Source: Pseudofabraea citricarpa
Lineage: Eukaryota > Ascomycota > Leotiomycetes > Helotiales > Dermateaceae
Assembly: GCA_029641185.1 (NCBI GenBank)
Contig: JAPWGK010000029.1
Span: forward strand, 124,001-188,000
Direction of reading: 5' to 3'
DNA length: 64,000 nucleotides
Program-made: the position numbers and the translations under genes
The notes under the pieces: generated by a model
The model's database searches: none
What the model saw: only the letters and a program-made list of their open reading frames with translations
Told to the model about the DNA's origin: nothing
Part shown: positions 11,163 to 43,200 of the stretch, in pieces
Layout: each line of letters begins with the position of its first letter
Numbering within the stretch: the first letter of the stretch is position 1

Positions 11163-14100
11163 TTAGTTCTCCATATTCGTTGCACGGGTCACTCCTTCCA
11201 CCGCGGTATGGTGGCGTCCACCAATACGTGCTCCACATTCAGGACAACGAGCTAGTTGCATTGGCATCCCACACTCACCAATTGCGAACTATCTAGTGAT
11301 CAGCAGCTATTGGAGATATATCATCAGTAAAAACTTACCGGATGTCCATTCTCACAGTTATACCAATGACCTGAATGGGTCGCAATTCCCTGAGAGCCAC
11401 TAACCATTGCAGCCTTAATCGCCTTGATCTCGTCTGCTGTAACTTCTTCATACCATTGTTTCTTCATGAGATTCACCGATTCCTCAACTGCAGCACGCAA
11501 GTTTTCCGCATTCTGAAATGGCTGCTTACATACTTCTCGGGCGTTCTCCAACAGCTGCTTCGCTGCTTCGACAAATACTGCAGCCTTTTCAAGCTCTGTT
11601 TTGGAAGATCGACAGAAGGATTCGAACGAGCGTGCAATCCTTGCATAATAAAGGGATGCCTCAACGGACAGTTTTGGGAGATTCTCAACATTACACTCAT
11701 CGATAAATTTCTTGCATCTCTTGAAGAATGGCATTGCAAGTGGACCGGGAGCTCCACCAGGTATCTTGAGAGACGTTGGTGTCAGTGCTTGGGTAATGAT
11801 AAACTTGTCGTTGAGGATGATAAATTCTGTCTTGATCTGAACCATCTGACCGCCCATGGTTACTCGCCGATCACGGGCAAGGGTCGGGACGGTGTCAACG
11901 AATGTTAGGTCTCCCATTAGTACGTCGAGAGCCGCACTCTCAGTGGCTGCTTTTTTGGCTGCATAAAGTGTTGCTTCGTGGAGCTTTTGCGCTGGTTGAT
12001 GTTTGTCGGCTACGTTGTTACAGAAATCCTTGATGGCTCTCTCGAGTGTCAAAAACTTCGTGTATCGTTCCTTGAGGGCGCTGGTGATCTGTGGAGCTAT
12101 TACCTGGGTGGTCTTTGAATCTAAATGTCTTTTGGCAACACGAATTGACGTTAAGATCGGTTCTCGACTTTGATCAAAGTCCTGCTCTAGTTCCACGATC
12201 CGCTGCTCTAATACTTGAAGCTCATCTCGTCCAGCTGTGAGAAATCGTTTAGACATTTCATCGATGACAGCTCTGTTGATCACTCTGTTGTATCTTTGCG
12301 TAGCAAATTGTCGTACAGGGCATTTGCAGTCTGGACAGTAAGGTATTGCCTGTGCCAGAGTCGCTGACACATCTTTGAGTCCAGTGAACTCACCATGAAC
12401 ATCTAGTTCATAAACTTCTGACATACTCATGAGACCGTCAAGAGATTCTGCAGTAAAGAAGTGGCCGCAACCTAGAACGACTATGGGTGTTTCATCAACA
12501 TCGATTTCTTCGTAACATTTCATCTCGAGGAAGTCCACTCGAGCGTCAAGCTTGTTAGAACATTTTTGACAGTAATTCTCTGCACACTCTTCGCCACAGA
12601 TTCCTGGACACTGATGTCCACATGAGAGGATCTTGGAGCAACGCTGGTTGCATGGAAGACGACTGCAAGGCGCAGCGCAGGGCATTTGGCAACTTCCCTT
12701 GTGTTCGCAGGACCAGGTACAGCTTTCGATACATGGTGCACATGATTGGTGGCAGCTTAATGTGCATCGAGAGTGAGAACATCGAACCTAGACCTGTCAG
12801 CATTGTTTGCGCTTTGGGAGAAAACCACCGATCTAAACATCGCATCACCCCCTGAGTAGTCACTGCATACGGAGTATGCACACCATGGATTGGCAACAGA
12901 AAGAAACAAATCTTACCTCACAGTGAGAGAAACAAGGTCCACAGTCTGTTCCATCATGGCATTGCCTTCGACACGTATGGTTGCAAGTTCCAAAGGGCCT
13001 ACCGCAAATCTTGGTACATTTTTGGTGCATGTCAGTGGGTTTTGCGTCGGAATCCTTGCTATCACATTTGCCACAAGTTCCTGGACAGCAATGGCCACAG
13101 CCCAAAATTTCTTCACAAGCTGTAAAACACTTGAAGGGTGGAGATGACACATCTTGAGAGCATGGAACCTCGACAGTGTGGTTGCAGCCCGCAACTTGTT
13201 TCTGAACACGAACATTGCACTTGATAGTGCTGACGTTTTGCGTTTGGTAGCATGGAACAGCATCTTTCAAATGACCGCATGGAAGATGCACGTTGTTCAG
13301 CTTCATGACACACACACCACAATCTTCGCCACAAGTTTGCTTCTGGCAGCTATGGTTGCACGGGCTGTGGAGACGTTGACAAGGTTGCGGGCATTTGAAA
13401 ACTTCGTGCATGTAGTCAGAATGACATCGTGCTAGACATTTGTGACCACAGTCAATAAGACGTCGATCGCAAGCAAGTTGGCATCCTCCCTCTGGGCTGT
13501 ATTTCTCGAAATCAAGTGGCTCGGAAGCTTGCATCACTGTGTCCTCATGCCGAGGACAGCATAGACCAAAGGCCTTTCCAACTGAGTCGGTTGCTTCTAG
13601 CATTCGGAGAACTTGTGCCCACATTGGTATATTGGCATAAGTATCGGTATTCCCAATCAGATACATGCCATGTTGTGCTCGACTGAGCAGTACATTAACG
13701 CGGTTTGTCGTCCTCAGAAATCCCACCTTCTTCTCCTTATTACTTCGCACCAGTGAGACAATTATGACCTTGCTTTCCTCGCCTTGAAAATTATCAACGG
13801 TTGCGACGCGGAGAAATTCGCTGAGGTTCTTTTTCTCAAGGGTCTTCCGTTTACTTCCTCCGCTGGTTTGATTGTCTTCGGTTGGTGTTATCTCTGCGCT
13901 AAATCCATCTCTTGCAAGTGTTTCCTCGTCTCGATCACTCAGAATGATTTCGAAATCGGTTCGCATTTTTGCTCTCAATTTCTGCAACTGTCCCGTATAT
14001 GGTGTCAACACAGTAATGTCTTTGCTGTTGTAGACACCTTGCCGAATGATGTGACGGACGAGAGCGTGCGTCATATCTACCTCCCAGTCATTGCTATGTG

Positions 14101-17100
14101 ACTTCTGGTGTCGATCAGCACTAGCGGTTTCTTCCATCTTATCATGATCAAGCCAGAAAACGTTCTTTCGCATTCCTACGACATCAGGTAGTTTCTGTGT
14201 AGTGGCGTGGTCGACAAGGCGTGGGTAGATGGTTGTTCGAATCAAATTTGAGATCTCGGGGCGCATACGTCGTTGAACATTCAACTGTGCGACTGGAAAT
14301 GGAGGTCTACCTGGTTCTCCTACCGAAAGTCGCTCGAATTGACTGCGGTCGAGTTGATAAGGAGTCCCCTGTTTGCTTTCGAGTGATAGCCCATAATTGT
14401 TAATCTGTGGACGTAATTGTTGATGGTCTCCAATTTGAATGAAGTGCTCGACACTGGGAAGTAAAGCTGATATCATATGGGGCTCCATAACTTCCCCAGC
14501 TTCCTCACATATGATGACTTTACATTGAACGCGTTGAAGAACGGAAATTCTCTTAGCCAACCCAGTTGTGGTGACACCGATGATATCCGCATCTTGGAGA
14601 GTTCTCCTATCAACTTCATCATGTATATCACTGAGGTCTTTTTGAGCACTGTGGGTGTCTTGCACATACTCAAACAACTGATCAGTTGCAGCTTCGTGGA
14701 TTTCTTGCACCCAGAATTCGATCAATCGGCGTCTTTCCAACTTTGAAAGACTGTGGATATTTCTATTTGCAGTATGGATAAGTTTCTGAGTGATGGCGAC
14801 TGGATCATCCGACGTATGATCTTCTCCGACGAGCCTTTCTGCCGTTCCTTGGCTCCAGATTTCAAAAGGATCCTTTCCAACCAGCTCGAAGTTATCCTTG
14901 TCGAACCGGGAGAACTGAGAATAGATACGGGAATATCTCCGTTGCAAATGATTTTTGATGTTAGTCCAATCAGACTTTTTTTGCGCATTATGCAGCGAGC
15001 CCAGAACTCTCTTTATAAGCTCTCCTTTCTTCTCGCGCTCCTCGTACATTTTAGCAGCAAGGTAAGCTTCGGATTTTGTTTTTCCCGCCCCTGGGGAGAC
15101 AAGGCGCAAATTCTTTCCCTCGAGAGTCTTCGACTTGCTCTGGCCTCCAATTCGTATAATCTTTTCAATGCCAATCTCAATGAGGTGTTCTAGGAACTGG
15201 TCCAAGGCGTGATTGGTGTAACATCTGCACAAAGTTAACTATCATACACGTACACTAAATTTAGTGACTTACACAACAATCACGGGTCCCAGATCGGCTT
15301 TCTCTTTACAATTCATGAGGACTCTCATAAGTTGAGTGCCAAGGTACGACTTTCCGGTTCCTGGTGGTCCTTGAATAAAAGCAAATTCGCGAGATAAGGC
15401 TGCAATCAGTGCTTGACACTGTCCACGGTCAAGTGTGGTTCGTGCTACAAGCGCATCAATCATTCCTGCATCATTGATTCGTCCTCCTGGAGTGAAAAGA
15501 AGTCGATCCCCCTTTTTTTTTAGTATGGCATCTAATGAGAAGACAAATCCTCCACCGCGGGCATAGAGTGGTGGGGGGATATCTAGAACCCCTGCAGAAA
15601 TCGACTGGCGGTCTGGGAGAATCCATTGACGAAATGGTAAGCGACTCAATCGTTGCATGTTTTGGAGGTTTTCAAGAATAGGAATAAATGTGGCGAGGAG
15701 AACTCCTGGAAACTCAATCAATGCTCCACGTGTGCTCTTGCGGCTCAGGTGGGTTAATAGTTCCAAGTCTGGCTGATTGCGTGTAGCAAGGTTGGTGACA
15801 ATGGTTGAAATATGCTCGTTGGAAGTCAGGCTGTAGTCCTTCTTGGGATCTGTAACTTTCTCGCTGACTGTAAGAAATAGGAGGGAACTCTTATTGTTGA
15901 CGGAAGAGACGAAACACAGTAGAGCACCTTCATCTAGGCGCTTTGAATCATCCCACCACTTGCGTCTATCCGAGGCAGACTTTTTACGAAGAGCTGGAAT
16001 TTGGTTAAATGAAACTTGGGCTTCTATTCCTTTCTTTTGGTTGAAAGAAATATAGCTGATATGAGCCTTAGGGTAATTGTACGCCCGCATGTCTCCGAGA
16101 TTCAGTTTTGGGTTGCCAAGTAAAGCCGGGTCATCGTCAACGGCGTTTATCAGTCCTCCCAGAGTGTCTTTCATTTCTCCAAAGATATCATGACGAAGTA
16201 AGCGGAAGTGGGTATCAAGGTGCCGCTCTACAGAGTCCTGGAGAAAATGTGGCTGATCAAGATCAGTGGTAGGTAAGAACTCTGGATAGTCGCTTCGAAT
16301 CTCATCTTCTGTGGGCAAAATCTTGATTTTCGTGATGTCGGCATTGTCATTATCATGGTGCCCGCCAGGTACAACGGCTTGTCGCGGATATGTCGACTTT
16401 ATCACAGTGGTGGAGATGCCGTTAACATTGGGCGCCGTGACGGCGGCAAGACGACCATTCGCACGGGCTATAATACCTTGAATCTCAATGTTCCGATTAT
16501 TGATCATATGAAAAGCCCTGGATGAATTGTCAATTCCAGTAACTTCGGTGGCTTTGTGAAGTGAGCTGGCAAGGCCTGGAAGGTCTTCATGGAATGCAAC
16601 TCGTTGTTCTCTTCTGAGGAGCTCGCGTAATGCAGTTGTCATCGCGATGAGTGTCGTCTCCACCGAGGCTTTGGAGACCTGAGATTTGGAGTAGCCTTCG
16701 ATCAAGTTTTCAAAGAGACTTTGTAGGAATGGTACTGCTCTTGTGCCATTGCTTCCACTGATGAAGTTGTATAAACCTCCAACGAAAGTATCGACGGACA
16801 GACAATCCAACATGGCGGGATGAGTTATAACAGAGAGAAAAGGCTTTGCAAGAGTGACGAAGGTACTGCATCCACCTGGATGTGATACCATGCTCATCAG
16901 CGTCTGAATGTGGTCTCGACCAAAATTGTCTTCTGCATCAAGATCTCGCGGGAGCATCTGCTTCCACTCGCGGTCGCCCTCGTTCAGAATGTGTAGAGCA
17001 CCCGACCACAATGCTTCAATTGTGGTAGTATCGTTTGGCTTTGGGGGTCTCTTGATGAGCCTCTTCCAAGAATTGTAGTCCTCTTTCTCTCGTTGTTGCT

Positions 17101-17359
17101 CAGGTGTATCTGCAGGTCTTCCTCTGGGTTGTCTGTGGCTGTTGGAAACATCGTGGGAATAGGTACACTTGTCGCCGTATGGGCAATCCTGTCCTTGCTC
17201 AATGTACCGACAAGTTCGACCCCCACCCCGATGGGAATTTCCACCTCTGCTGCCTCGGTTTCCTCTGTCTCCTCTGCCGCCACCATGTCTTCCACCTCCT
17301 CTTCCACTGGATCCACCTCTCGAATCTGGGCCTCGCCATCTTGCCCCGGGTGTTGCCAT
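11163..17359 (-). CDS. ZNFX1/NFX1-type zinc finger RNA helicase with N-terminal CCCH finger
   Basis: Four exons, 17359-15273, 15224-12917, 12787-11339 and 11288-11163, join in frame to about 1989 residues. The N-terminus is RGG/Gly-rich with one CCCH finger (C50, C59, C65, H69). A superfamily 1 helicase core follows: Walker A GPPGTGKS at 664-671, ICEEAGEV as the DEAG-type motif, and GDHQQLRP. The last third carries NFX1-type Cys-rich repeats (CGHKC, CNHSC, CGHCCPGTCGKC, CGHQCPGICGEEC). The C-terminus has a Cys/His segment (ECGMPMQLARCPECGARIGG). Relatives include animal ZNFX1 and fission yeast Hrr1, which act in small-RNA silencing and heterochromatin; that role here is by homology only. Introns of 48, 130 and 50 bp have GTAAG-type donors. 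The gene diverges from the coiled-coil gene at 18423. Confidence 0.92.
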
Positions 17360-18422
17360 GTCGGCGGTGTTTATCGATGTGTTTCAAATGAAATCTTTTT
17401 GGGTTCTGTGAAGGTCAGATATCTTGACATGAAGGTCAAGAGAGACAAGAAGGTCAAGAGAGACAAGAAAATCGAGAGAGAAAAGGTCAGAAAGGAGGAA
17501 AAGTCGGTGACAGCAGAATCCAGAACTTTCCACTTACTCTTTCTCAAACTCACTAATGCTCAAACGCAGGATGACTCTTTTTGAGAGACCACTAGGAGAT
17601 AAAGAATGTAGTCGGGAAAAATTGTTTGCTCGGCAGCCGACAGGAACCCTCGGTTGCCTGCTGTTGTGCTTGTCGAAGATTGGATTGTTCCCACCGCCGT
17701 TTGCAATGCGCATGGAGATTAACGCAGAGTTCTGTCATACACCTGAACAGGTATAGTGGATGTTGGGTATAAAAGAAAGTCGCAGCGTGGAAGCTATTTG
17801 GTGAATGGGTTTTTGGTGAGCTTGCGCGCTTCTTGTGGCAGGTTCTTTAATGCTCTAGCATGCCCCTGTGCTTAAACCAAGCGTCTGATTAGCTCAGTAA
17901 GTACCAATTTGTATGGCCGAGTAATATATGGACCTGCGTTCATCCAGGGATATGCTGATCCATCCTTTTGTTGTCTGGTGTTCAGTTATTTATTGTTTAG
18001 GTTCTGTGTGCCTTCGGACATCATGTACCCTTTTTGAATCATGTGATATTCCATGATTGAGCACTCCCACCAGTCAAATGCTTTTGGGCATTATGTGGCT
18101 CTTGATTACTATCCACTGCTGGTAAAAGATTGTGTTTTACAGTTTTAGTCAAGCAGATTCTCTCAATCCTCGAATATAGTTTATTTCCTCGGTGCTTTTT
18201 AGTTATTCTAGGCTTTCAAACATGAGCTATCCTTTCATGATCTTTCACTTTCTTTTTGATCATGCGTTTTTTTTCGTTCTGATTGCCTTCAAAAACTGAA
18301 CAAAGCGTGTGTATCACTTCAGGAAAGAACGACCTCGCTTAACCGAGCGACGTTCAAACTCAGAACGATCACTTGCCGTCATCCTCTGCCACCTTACACT
18401 TACAAAAACAGCAACGCGAAGT
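17360..18422. promoter_or_regulatory. Shared upstream region of two divergent genes
   Basis: About 1.06 kb separates the helicase start (minus strand) from the coiled-coil gene start (plus strand), so it should contain both promoters. A tandem AGGTCAAGAGAGACAAGAA unit is repeated at about 17426-17470, close to the helicase start. No coding signal is seen. Confidence 0.5.
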
Positions 18423-29618: not shown

Positions 29619-31527
29619 TCAACATGCTTGACCAGGACGTCCGCAAATGTCTTCGGTGGTATCGGGTGTTGGCACAGACTCGGTAACTGATTGTCATGTG
29701 AGATTGGGAAATCCAGAGAAACAATAGTGTTCTTTGACTAACCGTTGGGTTCGACTTCGGACACATCTTTCTTGCAAGCTTGACCAGGCGCACCACAATA
29801 TGGCGGTCTATCATTGACATTCTGTACCGATGATGGATTTGCAGCTATAATTCATTGTGAGATGGGGAAATCCAGAAAAACAACCGTGTTTTTTAACTAA
29901 CCGTTGGGTTCGACTTCGGACACATCTTTCTTGCAAGCTTGACCAGGCGCACCACAATATGGCGGTCTCCTATCGACATCTTGTAACAATGATGGAGTTG
30001 TGGCTATAATTCATTGTGAGACAAGGAAGTCTGAAGATAACGGTATTTTGACTAACCGTCGGGTTCAACTTCGGAGATCTCTTTCTTGCAGGCTTGACCA
30101 GGTGCACCACAATATGGCGGTCTCTCATTTTCATCTTGTACTGATGGTGGAGTTGTAGTGACTATGATTCGTTGTGAGATAAGTAAGTCTGAAGATAACG
30201 GTATTTTGACTAACCGTCGGGCTCAACTTCAGAAATCTCTCTCTTGCAAGTGTGACCAGGCAAAAGACAATATGGCTGGGAAACAGGTGGCTGTACTGAA
30301 ACCTCTCTCTTGCAAGTGTGACCAGGCAAAAGACAATATGGCTGGGAAACAGGTGGCTGTACTGAAACCTCTCTCTTGCAAGCTTGCCAAGGGAAGAGAC
30401 AATATGGCTGGGAAACAGGTGGCTGTACTGAAACCTCTCTCTTGCAAGCTTGCCAAGGGAAGAGACAATATGGCTGCGAAACAGGTGGCTGTGCTGGGGT
30501 TGCTGTGGCTATGATTCGTTGTGAGATAAGGAAGTCTGAAGAATGACGGTATTGTTTGACTAACCGTCGGTTTCAACTTCGGAAATCTCTCTCTTGCAAG
30601 CTTGCCCAGGGAAAAGACAATATGGTTGGGAAACGGGTGGCTGTGCTGGGGTTGTTAGGGTTGCTGAGACTAATGGGACTGCTGTAACTATGAAGACTTT
30701 GTGAGAAAACGAAATTCCAGAAGGTTTGTTGGGCTAATTGACTAACCCTCAACCTCGGAGATCTCGTCTCTCTTGTATGGTTGTCCAGGACGTCCAGCGT
30801 AGTTCTTGCGTGGCTCTGGAGAGGCTTCGCGCTTGTATGGTTGTCCAGGTCGTCCAGCGTAGTTCTTGCGGGGCTCAGGTGAGGCCTCGCGCTCTTCGAC
30901 CTCAGAGATCTCGTCTTTCTTACATGGTTGTCCGGGACGGCCACAGTAGTTCTTGGCTGAAGCTTCACGAGCCTCAATGACTAAGATTTCATGAGTTAGT
31001 AGATCACCAAAGTCGATGGTGCCAGCTTACCTTCAGTCACTTCATCAGGAATCTCGTCCTTCTTGTAGGCTTGTCCAGGACGTCCAGCGAATGGTCGAGA
31101 CTTCTTCTTTGGCTCACGCTTCTCGACCTCTAAAGCTTCATCAGCTGTGTTATCTCTGAGGGCAGGGCAACGGGGGGTTCATACCGTCAGGAATCTCGTC
31201 CTTCTTGTAGGCTTGTCCAGGACGTCCAGCGAATGGTCGGAACTTCTTCTTTGGCTCACGCTTCTCGACTTCTAAAGCTTCGTCAGTCATATCATCTCTG
31301 GGAGCAAAGGAAAATGGGGGGGGGTTCATACCGTCTGGAATGACATCTTTCTTGTAGGGCTGTCCAGGGCGTCCAGCGTAGTTCTTGCGTGGCTCTGGAG
31401 CAGGGAGAGCTTCACGCTTGTATCCCTGATCAACAGCACTATTGTAGGGTGATTGGGGGCTGGGAAGGGCAGCAGCGCTGACCGAGGTCACAATGACCAG
31501 GGCAGTAAGTGCGTTGGTGAATTTCAT
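29619..31527 (-). CDS. Secreted Kex2-processed multi-repeat peptide precursor, alpha-pheromone-like
   Basis: Ten exons: 31527-31332, 31295-31185, 31153-31031, 30980-30747, 30687-30565, 30508-30215, 30161-30057, 30003-29902, 29844-29743, 29686-29619. They join in frame to about 485 residues. A signal peptide (MKFTNALTALVIVTSVSAAA) leads. Fifteen core peptides follow, nearly all ending in KK or KR (Kex2 sites), with acidic or EA-containing spacers (DEISEVE, REASPEPRK). Cores are of two kinds: YCGRPGQPC, YCLFPGQAC, YCLFPWQAC, YCLLPGHTC, YCGAPGQAC, ICGRPGQAC; and YAGRPGQPY, FAGRPGQAY. The last core ends directly at the stop. The C-x-x-P-G-Q-x-C plan matches ascomycete alpha-pheromones (from memory, WCGRPGQPC in Leotiomycetes), but Tyr replaces the first Trp. 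A RiPP precursor is the alternative; no UstYa or tyrosinase gene is nearby. Introns 1 and 2 are doubtful; without them translation stops after 125 residues. Confidence 0.8.
30224..30491 (-). repeat. Four tandem 66-bp coding repeats in exon 6 of the precursor
   Basis: The sixth exon holds four near-identical 22-codon units, each reading QPPVSQPYC...CKREVSV. Two units carry LFPWQA and two carry LLPGHT between the cysteines. The near identity shows recent unequal exchange or slippage. Confidence 0.9.
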
Positions 31528-40277: not shown

Positions 40278-43200
40278 TTAAGAGAGCATGGCCAGTTTCT
40301 GGAGCACTGTCAAGACACCTAGAGGCTGATTAGCAGGCTGTCATCCATGTGACATATTATTATAACGTACCAGTGACACCTTGGGTAAGTGTAAAGCCGG
40401 CTTCGGTATTTCGGCTTCCCAGGCTGACAGTTGTAACGCTTTCAACGTCCTTGTTTCTGCCCAAGTCATTTGCCCACCGGAAAATAACCTCGTCATCGCG
40501 TCCATCGCCAACGACCATCAAGAAGTCTACAGGCTTGGTTTCGGAGCCAGGCGCCATGTTCTGCTTGAGGCCATCCATAATTTGGTCTGCTGCGGTGGCC
40601 TTGGACCAATCAATTGGCTCGACAAGAACAGCTCCTAAGAAGAATGAGCTCAGGTAAGGTGAGAGGATGGGAGTCAACTTACGTTCGGTTGGGATAGCAC
40701 GGACCCGTTGTTCTTCGCAGGCATCATTAATGTGACCTGCACAATCACCTGCCAGTCGAGCTGCACTTTCTTGATCTTCGGAATCCTTGTAATGAAAAAT
40801 CAAACTGCAGTGTCTGCTTTCAACCCACGATCCAGGAGTACGCTCTTGGTAATAATTCATGATTCCTTCAACCGAGTCCTTCCAAGAACGCATCCTGTCC
40901 GGATCGGGCATTTCAACCCAGGTGGTACTTCCGAATTCTTTCAAAAAGCAACCATTCTCAGCAATGAGACCGAGACTTGGAACACGCTTGAAGAGACGAT
41001 CAAGTTCTTCAGGTTGGCGGCTAGACATGACATAAACGATATTTCGATCATCGGATATGATATCGTTTAGGACATCAATGGTACGCTGTAAAAATAAGCA
41101 TGTTTCGTCTTGAGATAAATGAAGGATATTTACCTGAGGACTAGTTAGGATGATACTAGTAGGTGAGCCCCACGATGCCAAAGTACCCTCGTAGTCTATT
41201 ATGAACAGTCTGTGTCCGGATTTTTGATACTTCTGCCCAAGGGTATTGATTGAGAGGCGAGGTACAGAGGTAGTGTCACGCTTGTGCTGCTCGTCATAAA
41301 CACTATCGAGCCTAGTTAAGAAAGCAGTAAACCAATGCTCTGCAGTATGGTGCATCACTGCATCATATAACTTATTCCATCGAATTTCCTTTTCATCATC
41401 GCCCATCTCCAAAGCGGTTTTAATGGCATCAGCGCATTGACGATAATCCCAAGGATTAACCGATAGTTCATGGCCGCCAAAAACTGAAGCACTGCCAGTG
41501 AATTCGCTCAGGATGAGAGATCCGAATTTGTTGTGCCCCTCAAATTTGCCATCTTGGCAGAATAGATACTCATGACATGTGAGGTTCATTCCTTCTCGTT
41601 GACTAGCAATCATCAAAGCATCAGCGACTGTAAGAAGCGCAAGGTACTGAGGGTAGCTGATGTCCTGCTTGAGGTAAACAACTGGCTGATAAGCGAGGTT
41701 GGCCCAAGAAGAATTGATTCTGGTAACGATGTCAGACACGGTCGCATCCAATTCTGCTTGTTCCGTCGTAGACGTAGCGACCTGGATCATGACTACGTGA
41801 TCGCGCCATTCCGGATATTTATTCAGGAACAACTCGTAAGCCAAGAGCTTTTGTCGAACTCCTCTGACATGATCAAGTTTGTCTCTAGCCACAATCAACT
41901 TTTTCCCTCGATAACGCTCTTGCATTGTGTTCAGCCATTCTGTGAGAGAGGGATCGGCTCTATTCATGTCAAGTGCAACAGGATCAATGCCAATGGCAAG
42001 GTCCACAACATTGACAAATCGATCTTCGAGTTGAACACCGTCGTTTGTCGCCTCTACGCAAAGTAGTCTGCTGCAGGTTTGCAGGAAGTGACGAGCATAC
42101 TCATGGATCTGAAAGCCAACGAGGTTGGCTCCAAGCATCCCTTCGAGCAATTCCTTGCGAACAGCCAGGCATCTGAAAACTTCCGACGAAGGGAAAGCAA
42201 CGTGCAAAAAGAATCCAATTTTCGCATCTGGCAGTTTCTTGCGGACCATAGAAGGTACCAAGAGCAAATGATAGTCATGCACCCAGATGACATCACCGCG
42301 TTTCCAGTTCTTGATAAGCTTGTCTGCAAAAGCCTGATTGACCTTGACATAGTAGACCCACGAGTGGTCTTCATATGCTTTGCTCTTTGGGTTGTCTGGA
42401 ATCTGGTAATGGAAGACAGGCCAAAGAATCTGCTTGCAGTAATGGGTGTAATGGCCATCGAAATCACCATCCTTGCAGAATACAGTCAACGAGTCGTACT
42501 CGGTGGCCAGACGGTCCTCGATATCTTGCTTTCGCTGATCCTCAAGAGCATCCGTGGGCATGCCTAATGTGCCTACCCAAATCTTGTCATTCAAGTTGCC
42601 GTTTCTGACCGCAGCCTGGACGGCATTTCGAAGGCCACCATTTCCTTGGTCGGCAGGTTCCACAGTCCAATCGGCGTTGGAGAAGACGCGGTCATGACTA
42701 TCGCTTCGACCTCCAAGCTGGGGCTGGCGTATACCGGCTCTCCCCAAAGAAGCTGCCTTCTCAAAAGTCTTATTGTGCTTGCGAACGTCTGCCGGAGGTG
42801 GAGAGCTTGCTCTCGACCGGGGTTGAGTGAACAGACGCCCTGATCCCCAAGCTGGTGAGTGGGGATCACTAGGAGCAGTTGTAGAACGACGATCGCTTAG
42901 CTTCGGAAAATGTGGACGGAGATCATTGTTATCTGACCGAGCGAAGAATTCTTCATGGTCAATATCTGCAATGGGTGTCTCGGGAGGGGTGAGATCTCTC
43001 TGCGCGAAGAGACTTGGTGTTTGAACGGTATCAAGTCGGCCAGTTCGCGTGGTGGTTGTTCGCCTCGGGTGACTTGGGCGACCACGAGCAGAGCTTGAGC
43101 TGGGGAGAGAGAAGTTGATGGTGTTGGGGAGGAAACTGTGCAGATCTTGTGGTCAGCGCTGTGCGACACTTTGCACGAGAAAAGAGATGGCGGCGCGTGT

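Follow-up and report, generated by a model that had tools for sequence, protein, structure and literature searches.

The locus described here raises the question of whether a gene encoding fifteen short, varied peptide cores is the source of the alpha-pheromone of its species or has some other role. It lies on the minus strand of a 64,000-nucleotide stretch of Pseudofabraea citricarpa DNA, here called the window (contig C22:124001-188000, in a genome of 44.0 Mb in 43 contigs), and positions given below are those of the window unless a contig is named. A first-pass annotation had offered three readings, namely a highly diversified pheromone precursor, a pheromone-derived paralogue with a new role, or a precursor of ribosomally synthesized and post-translationally modified peptides (RiPPs). 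Our analysis favours the first, and we consider it very probable, judging from the sequence, that the gene encodes the ppg1-type alpha-pheromone precursor of its species.

From 31527 to 29619 on the minus strand there is one open frame of 469 aa once nine introns are spliced out. The coordinates of the ten-exon gene proposed earlier proved exact, and the frame is intact over all nine introns, each of which is a GT-AG intron in phase 1, with the frame restored despite their unequal lengths. The splice model is predicted from sequence alone, on the basis of the frame, the donor and acceptor sites and the repeat structure. The N-terminus, MKFTNALTALVIVTSVSAAA, contains a hydrophobic stretch (residues 7-21) that agrees, on hydropathy only, with the signal peptide assigned in the first-pass annotation. 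The parts of the gene are as follows.

From 31527, minus strand: start codon ATG
Roughly 31471-31527, minus strand: signal peptide, estimated from hydropathy only
31332-31527, minus strand: exon 1, with start codon, hydrophobic N-terminus and core 1
31272-31331, minus strand: intron 1 (60 bp), GTATGA...TTTAG, phase 1
31185-31271, minus strand: exon 2, core 2
31130-31184, minus strand: intron 2 (55 bp), GTATGA...TTTAG, phase 1
31031-31129, minus strand: exon 3, core 3
30981-31030, minus strand: intron 3 (50 bp), GTAAGC...CTTAG, phase 1
30747-30980, minus strand: exon 4, cores 4, 5 and 6
30688-30746, minus strand: intron 4 (59 bp), starting GTTAGT, phase 1
30565-30687, minus strand: exon 5, core 7
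30509-30564, minus strand: intron 5 (56 bp), starting GTTAGT, phase 1
30215-30508, minus strand: exon 6, cores 8, 9, 10 and 11
30162-30214, minus strand: intron 6 (53 bp), starting GTTAGT, phase 1
30057-30161, minus strand: exon 7, core 12
30004-30056, minus strand: intron 7 (53 bp), starting GTTAGT, phase 1
29902-30003, minus strand: exon 8, core 13
29845-29901, minus strand: intron 8 (57 bp), starting GTTAGT, phase 1
29743-29844, minus strand: exon 9, core 14
29687-29742, minus strand: intron 9 (56 bp), starting GTTAGT, phase 1
29619-29686, minus strand: exon 10, core 15 and stop codon
29619-29621, minus strand: stop codon, directly after the last core

Intron 1 is the sole intron that could be retained with the frame open, as introns 2-9 each introduce a stop. 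Were any of introns 4-9 retained, the protein would end between cores because the donor G|GTTAG reads GGT TAG at once. Introns 1-3 contain the branch-point pattern CTRAY/TTRAY, which introns 4-9 lack; near the 3' ends of the latter, inspection by eye revealed CTCACA (common to introns 4-8) and CTCACATGAC (intron 9), which may be their branch points.

The protein includes 15 cores of eight different sequences, confirming the earlier count, and the last of them does end exactly at the stop codon.

31354-31380, minus strand: core 1, YAGRPGQPY, exon 1
31207-31233, minus strand: core 2, FAGRPGQAY, exon 2
31065-31091, minus strand: core 3, FAGRPGQAY, exon 3
30922-30948, minus strand: core 4, YCGRPGQPC, exon 4
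30835-30861, minus strand: core 5, YAGRPGQPY, exon 4
30775-30801, minus strand: core 6, YAGRPGQPY, exon 4
30596-30622, minus strand: core 7, YCLFPGQAC, exon 5
30444-30470, minus strand: core 8, YCLFPWQAC, exon 6
30378-30404, minus strand: core 9, YCLFPWQAC, exon 6
30312-30338, minus strand: core 10, YCLLPGHTC, exon 6
30246-30272, minus strand: core 11, YCLLPGHTC, exon 6
30088-30114, minus strand: core 12, YCGAPGQAC, exon 7
29933-29959, minus strand: core 13, YCGAPGQAC, exon 8, the sole core directly preceded by RR-PP
29774-29800, minus strand: core 14, YCGAPGQAC, exon 9
29622-29648, minus strand: core 15, ICGRPGQAC, exon 10

YAGRPGQPY and YCGAPGQAC are each present in three copies, FAGRPGQAY, YCLFPWQAC and YCLLPGHTC in two, and YCGRPGQPC, YCLFPGQAC and ICGRPGQAC in one. 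The protein has 14 occurrences of the motif [YF][CA]xxPxxx[CY] with two basic residues after it; in 20,000 shuffled proteins the mean was 0.0005 and the highest count 1. All 20 Cys residues of the protein lie inside cores; ten cores have the C..C pair, five (1, 2, 3, 5 and 6) have A..Y in its place, and none is mixed. The plan Y-C-x-x-P-G-Q-x-C, put forward earlier for all the cores, fits five of them strictly (4, 7, 12, 13 and 14) and the other ten deviate from it. Likewise, the first residue is Tyr in most cores and Ile in core 15, as had been stated of the residues replacing Trp, but cores 2 and 3 start with Phe. Tyr is present in 14 of the 15 cores. At the turn, PG is found in 13 of the 15 and GQ in 11; Gly-Gln is broken in four cores, by WQ in 8 and 9 and by GH in 10 and 11, and cores 8 and 9 have neither PG nor GQ.

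Two kinds of duplication are visible, short repeats inside exons and whole exon-plus-intron units, and the gene would have grown by both, the former in exons 4 and 6.

30772-30893, minus strand: 60-bp tandem repeat, 2 copies, exon 4 (TRF)
30232-30496, minus strand: 66-bp tandem repeat, 4 copies, exon 6 (TRF)
29733-30276, minus strand: exon-plus-intron tandem array, period 159 bp, 3.5 copies (TRF)

The 159-bp array begins late in exon 6 and runs just into intron 9, and its self-matches cross the exon borders without gaps. Introns 5, 6 and 7 are mutually 88-92 % identical, introns 8 and 9 share 84 % and introns 1 and 2 share 73 %, while pairs such as introns 1-3 against the rest share 54-64 %. 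Among the exons, 7, 8 and 9 are mutually 81-89 % identical and 2 and 3 share 85 %. Exons 2-9 start and finish in phase 1, and this symmetry would let such units be added without loss of frame. The DNA over the core is identical in the pairs 2/3, 8/9, 10/11 and 13/14, and most repeat copies otherwise differ.

One intact STE2 gene, with two exons, was found in the genome, on contig C1. Its first exon shares 82 % identity with Phlyctema vagabunda and 63 % with Coleophoma crateriformis (both Dermateaceae, Helotiales, Leotiomycetes), and its two exons, which a GT...AG intron separates, align end to end with the Phlyctema protein at 81 % and 78 %. STE3 has one match in the genome. On contig C39, within about 12 kb, a COX6A open reading frame (ORF), an APN2-like nuclease ORF, HMG-box ORFs, a MAT alpha box and an SLA2-like gene follow in that order, with the HMG-box ORFs and the alpha box 1.8 kb apart.

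Contig C39, L031:1770-9609 and L032:779-3851: mating-type (MAT) locus, with HMG-box and alpha-box ORFs

APN2, COX13 and SLA2 are names of genes that flank MAT loci. The C-terminal half of the HMG box is narrowly over the Pfam cut-off (26.5 vs 25.4 bits); the adjacent ORF, itself unmatched in Pfam, was seen on inspection to carry the N-terminal half. From its layout, the locus is predicted to be that of a self-fertile (homothallic) fungus and hence the strain may sense its own pheromone.

A second precursor was sought throughout the genome. Comparison of the precursor protein with the whole genome gave nine matches, all to its own exons, and both of the two occurrences of CGRPGQ[AP]C at the DNA level are inside the precursor gene. 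The looser pattern WCxxxG[QE]xC occurs at 10 places (6 for the reversed pattern) and CxxPGQxC at 18, six in the precursor gene and 12 elsewhere (6 for the control). The in-frame contexts of these 22 places elsewhere were read by eye, over 60 residues on each side or 40 before and 35 after, and no repeated core was seen around any of them. Two of these places were rejected individually: L034 has KR before it, yet its core is unrepeated, and L045 has RKR after it, but is unrepeated and has a stop codon five residues upstream. The canonical WC...C precursor for which a search had been recommended was thus not found in the genome by these pattern and protein searches, which a strongly divergent one would escape. 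With one intact STE2, one STE3, a MAT locus and no second precursor found, the gene is most likely the alpha-pheromone gene itself, in line with the first of the three original readings.

The substitution pattern also bears on function. Among cores 1, 4, 5 and 6 there are 0.48 silent differences per site (pS) compared with 0.075 replacement differences (pN), and among cores 12-14 pS is 0.21 and pN is 0, with 0.29 and 0.20 in the spacers of those units. Within the pentamer GRPGQ, cores 1-6 and 15 have accumulated at least six silent changes and no replacements (codons counted by hand). For all 15 cores together, pS is 0.60 and pN 0.27. These values are evidence of constraint in several core groups, short of a formal test, since the numbers are small, the pairwise comparisons depend on one another and sequence may be exchanged between copies.

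How the cores would be released was predicted by cutting after KR/RR and then stripping XA or XP dipeptides (Kex2 and Ste13). On the C side, KK or KR follows all 14 internal cores and the fifteenth meets the stop codon; on the N side, KR/RR and then Ste13-type dipeptides stand directly before five of the 15 (1, 2, 3, 6 and 13). Hence, the predicted C-side signal is fully conserved and the N-side signal is not, and the description of the cores as Kex2-flanked holds for one side but not for most cores on the other. Under this rule only core 13 would be released as a bare 9-mer, YCGAPGQAC. Cores 1 and 6 would give RKNYAGRPGQPY, cores 2 and 3 15-mers starting KKK (12-mers if KK is cut), cores 9-11 20-mers such as EVSVQPPVSQPYCLFPWQAC, and cores 7, 8 and 12 a 38-, a 30- and a 33-mer, respectively. 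Cores 4, 5, 14 and 15 have no KR/RR back to the preceding core, just the KK of that core. Ste13 dipeptides before the repeats are described as a typical but not strict feature of alpha-pheromone precursors, and in Hymenoscyphus repandus the processing sites lie away from the repeats (PMC10569646; this and the other publications are cited from the portions of their text accessible to us). The genome has one P-domain (Kex2-type) locus and two DPPIV_N loci, either of which may be Ste13.

Several observations weigh against a ppg1-type precursor. Ten of the 15 cores are without a simple N-side processing signal. Cores 8-11 show little excess of silent change (pS 0.19, pN 0.14), with PGQ changed to PWQ and PGH, and some spacers are as constrained as the cores (0.46 vs 0.05 in units 2/3 and 0.52 vs 0.04 in units 5/6), so that constraint is not confined to the cores. 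In protein searches, none of 7993 scored candidates matched the full protein at E values up to 0.001, and one of 7992 matched the first 254 residues with E up to 10, at E 2.5; that match (Pfam PF05201 and PF03892) was discounted as fortuitous. As both searches scored just the candidates sharing most words with the query, and no ppg1 was compared directly, an absence of orthologues is not implied, although neither search yielded a usable homologue. The protein has no Pfam pheromone domain, three families being reached at E 0.09-0.57 in a scan up to E 10, all below their cut-offs. These, with an alpha-A conotoxin-like model (E 0.42) among them, were rejected as short Cys motifs matching by chance. 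The Pfam families MF_alpha and MF_alpha_N have no match in the protein, and a genome scan with them was uninformative, control genomes being silent too. Finally, there is no TGAAAC in the 1.2 kb upstream, an element that may not apply to this lineage.

If the gene is nevertheless the alpha-pheromone precursor, we infer that it is transcribed and spliced and that its product enters the secretory pathway. A Kex2-type protease would cut C-terminally to the basic pair behind each core, leaving basic residues for a Kex1-type carboxypeptidase to strip, and some of the N-terminal spacers would be trimmed by a Ste13-type dipeptidyl peptidase. A mixture of related peptides would be secreted and act on the single Ste2 receptor of the genome. 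Cores 1-7 and 12-15, which keep PGQ, are likely agonists, and those most likely to have little or no activity, or an altered role, are cores 8-11 (WQ, GH). The mixture might even be a graded blend for one receptor, composed of Cys-pair cores that can be switched off by oxidation, Ala2/Tyr9 cores that cannot, and weak or opposing Leu3 cores with a broken turn. Splicing could set the blend, as the TAG within the donor of six introns would end the protein between cores on retention. We regard this elaboration as unlikely.

The alternative that survives best is that the gene is still a pheromone precursor, with its core diversity largely the result of drift in a growing and shrinking repeat array under relaxed pheromone signalling. 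Partner recognition would matter less in a fungus with both HMG-box and alpha-box genes, and here these ORFs lie between the COX6A/nuclease pair and the SLA2-like gene in a layout predicted to be self-fertile. The missing N-side signals and the weakly constrained cores 8-11 with their broken Gly-Gln also speak for drift. Against it stand the excess of silent over replacement change in cores 1, 4, 5, 6 and 12-14, the frame kept across nine introns, and the fact that Cys residues are kept or lost only as pairs, though the paired change may have been a single event followed by duplication. We regard this alternative as possible though on balance doubtful; as it overlaps with the reading that we prefer, the two are not mutually exclusive, and part of the core diversity may be due to drift in a self-fertile fungus.

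That the gene is instead a pheromone-derived paralogue with a non-mating role, a canonical precursor elsewhere supplying the pheromone, is very unlikely. The cores are atypical, and in Fusarium oxysporum the alpha-pheromone is also a quorum signal and a chemoattractant (PMC7289986). However, the genome has one STE2 gene and no canonical WC...C precursor was found alongside, although one as divergent as those of the Erysiphaceae (PMC10569646) would have been missed.

A RiPP precursor of the ustiloxin/dikaritin-like kind, with cyclised Tyr-containing cores, is highly improbable. As in ustiloxin-type precursors, this is a Kex2-type repeat protein with Tyr in nearly every core. The genome has at least 46 UstYa exon matches, nine of those listed being on C22, and a Rutstroemia pheromone homologue has a DUF3328 gene two genes away (PMC7329392). 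However, those nine are all at 56.9-92.2 kb of the contig and the precursor gene is at 153.6-155.5 kb; among the UstYa matches listed, none lies within the window or beyond it on the contig, and the nearest is 61 kb away. The interval between 92.2 kb and the start of the window has 14 ORFs (not gene models) that are 150 residues or longer and do not overlap, followed within the window, before the precursor gene, by at least four Pfam-supported genes (metallophosphatase, AAA helicase, proteasome subunit and histidine phosphatase), and there is no UstYa among the 20 window ORFs scanned with Pfam. DUF3328 was reported within 15 genes for 22.3 % of 7878 Kex2-repeat proteins (mean distance 3.09 genes) and for 3 of 216 putative fungal pheromones (PMC7329392). 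The cores are also of eight kinds rather than near-identical. Two other Kex2-repeat ORFs, each with three near-identical repeats, do lie among the UstYa matches and fit the ustiloxin type better.

C22:58370-58798, minus strand: Kex2-repeat ORF (L054), outside the window
C22:87958-88374, minus strand: Kex2-repeat ORF (L057), outside the window

Together with the UstYa matches around them, these are probable ustiloxin-type RiPP clusters.

A decaying or mis-assembled array, to which the high internal repetition (which could mislead an assembler) and the eroded N-side signals might point, is barely credible given 469 codons in full frame with consistent splice sites, silent changes dominating several core groups, and repeat copies that mostly differ.

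As an alpha-pheromone precursor, the gene is of a kind already known, since many, mixed, non-Trp and Cys-free cores have each been published. Among 124 Leotiomycetes, 115 were reported to have a putative alpha-factor gene, 104 of them typical, with 89-446 aa and 2-18 repeats (PMC10569646). In the same survey, WCGRPGQPC was present in 31 of 36 Sclerotiniaceae species, with additional unique repeats in nine species, other families have RCGHPGQPCG, RCGYPGQPCG or RCGARGQGCW, and first residues other than Trp are common. The contrast drawn in the first-pass annotation with precursors of a few identical WC...C cores therefore understates the known range. Like the Leotiomycete ppg1 products, the protein described here would be a secreted precursor in which repeated cores, there sometimes of several kinds, carry a GQ or PG turn and are followed by a basic pair; this turn is described for the 'vast majority' of alpha-pheromones, not all. 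Its cores resemble WCGRPGQPC of the Sclerotiniaceae and RCGHPGQPCG/RCGYPGQPCG of the other families, but the precursor differs from the Leotiomycete kind in having Tyr, Phe or Ile first, in the five Cys-free cores and in the WQ and GH cores. At 469 aa it is longer than the 446-aa maximum of the survey, and its 15 repeats are within the maximum of 18. The ten exons with duplicated exon-plus-intron units may be a further difference from Leotiomycete ppg1 genes, for which the accessible sources give no exon counts.

Variation of these kinds extends to other groups. Genes of the Ceratocystidaceae encode 1-13 peptides of varied sequence, those of Meredithiella having a central Trp in place of Gly (PMC13037118), and the Neurospora and Rutstroemia precursors have mixed sequences between Kex2 sites (PMC7329392). 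Cys-free alpha-pheromones are known from the Pleosporales (PYG[L/M]P[I/V]G; PMC6339444) and Huntiella (NSNGGLPGELL; PMC10182648), but there they mark a lineage, whereas here Cys-free and Cys-pair cores are side by side. In Saccharomyces, MF-alpha1 is likewise a polyprotein of repeated units, the number of which varies and matters for output (PMC5850478); the peptide differs, and Pfam MF_alpha is unmatched here. In the literature covered, mostly titles and the starts of abstracts and excluding supplementary tables, there was no multi-exon alpha-pheromone precursor and none mixing Cys-pair and Cys-free cores, and of five core strings sought WCGRPGQPC alone was found, in one paper. As far as this literature tells, the novelty lies in a single precursor combining Cys-pair with Cys-free cores, in cores that break the turn and in multiplication by exon-plus-intron units.

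The pheromone of F. oxysporum, the Trp-rich 10-mer WCTWRGQPCW, likewise has cysteines at positions 2 and 9 around a central Gly-Gln turn; oxidation between Cys2 and Cys9 inactivates it, D-Ala at Gly6-Gln7 abolishes activity, and a D-Ala1,2 analogue keeps chemotropic activity and does not repress germination (PMC7289986). Peptides that act as weak antagonists of the Botrytis receptor, at 2,000-fold excess, carry Leu3 or Met3 ahead of Arg4-Pro5, together with an additional Trp10 (PMC12582325). If these findings carry over to this fungus, which we infer by analogy, the Cys-free cores could not have the oxidation control point of the Fusarium peptide, and cores 8-11 would share Leu3 with the Botrytis antagonists, together with a broken Gly-Gln, but would be without their Arg4 and Trp10. 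In a test of 30 receptors against 30 peptides, 14 receptors responded to their own peptide only, five to one more and 11 to several (PMC6265332). Pheromone and receptor must remain matched at every stage of any change, and for this reason how the two evolve jointly is an open question. Eight versions for one receptor would be a natural variant set, which includes the paired loss of both Cys residues and lets receptor tolerance, redox control and antagonism be probed directly, and the gene illustrates a modular exon-plus-intron route to multiplying cores.

Elsewhere in the window, 11 of the 20 ORFs scanned have a Pfam family at or over the cut-off. Among these are an isocitrate dehydrogenase-type ORF neighbouring the precursor gene, aquaporin-type and CAP-type ORFs, and a 930-residue ORF of the trehalose-6-phosphate synthase/phosphatase type.

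40363-43152, minus strand: trehalose-6-phosphate synthase/phosphatase-type ORF
11327-17383, minus strand: three long ORFs in a row

Of the ORFs in this row, two have AAA helicase or CCCH/ZNFX1-type matches and the third (11327-12787) has no Pfam match; the trio is possibly one intron-containing ZNFX1-like gene.

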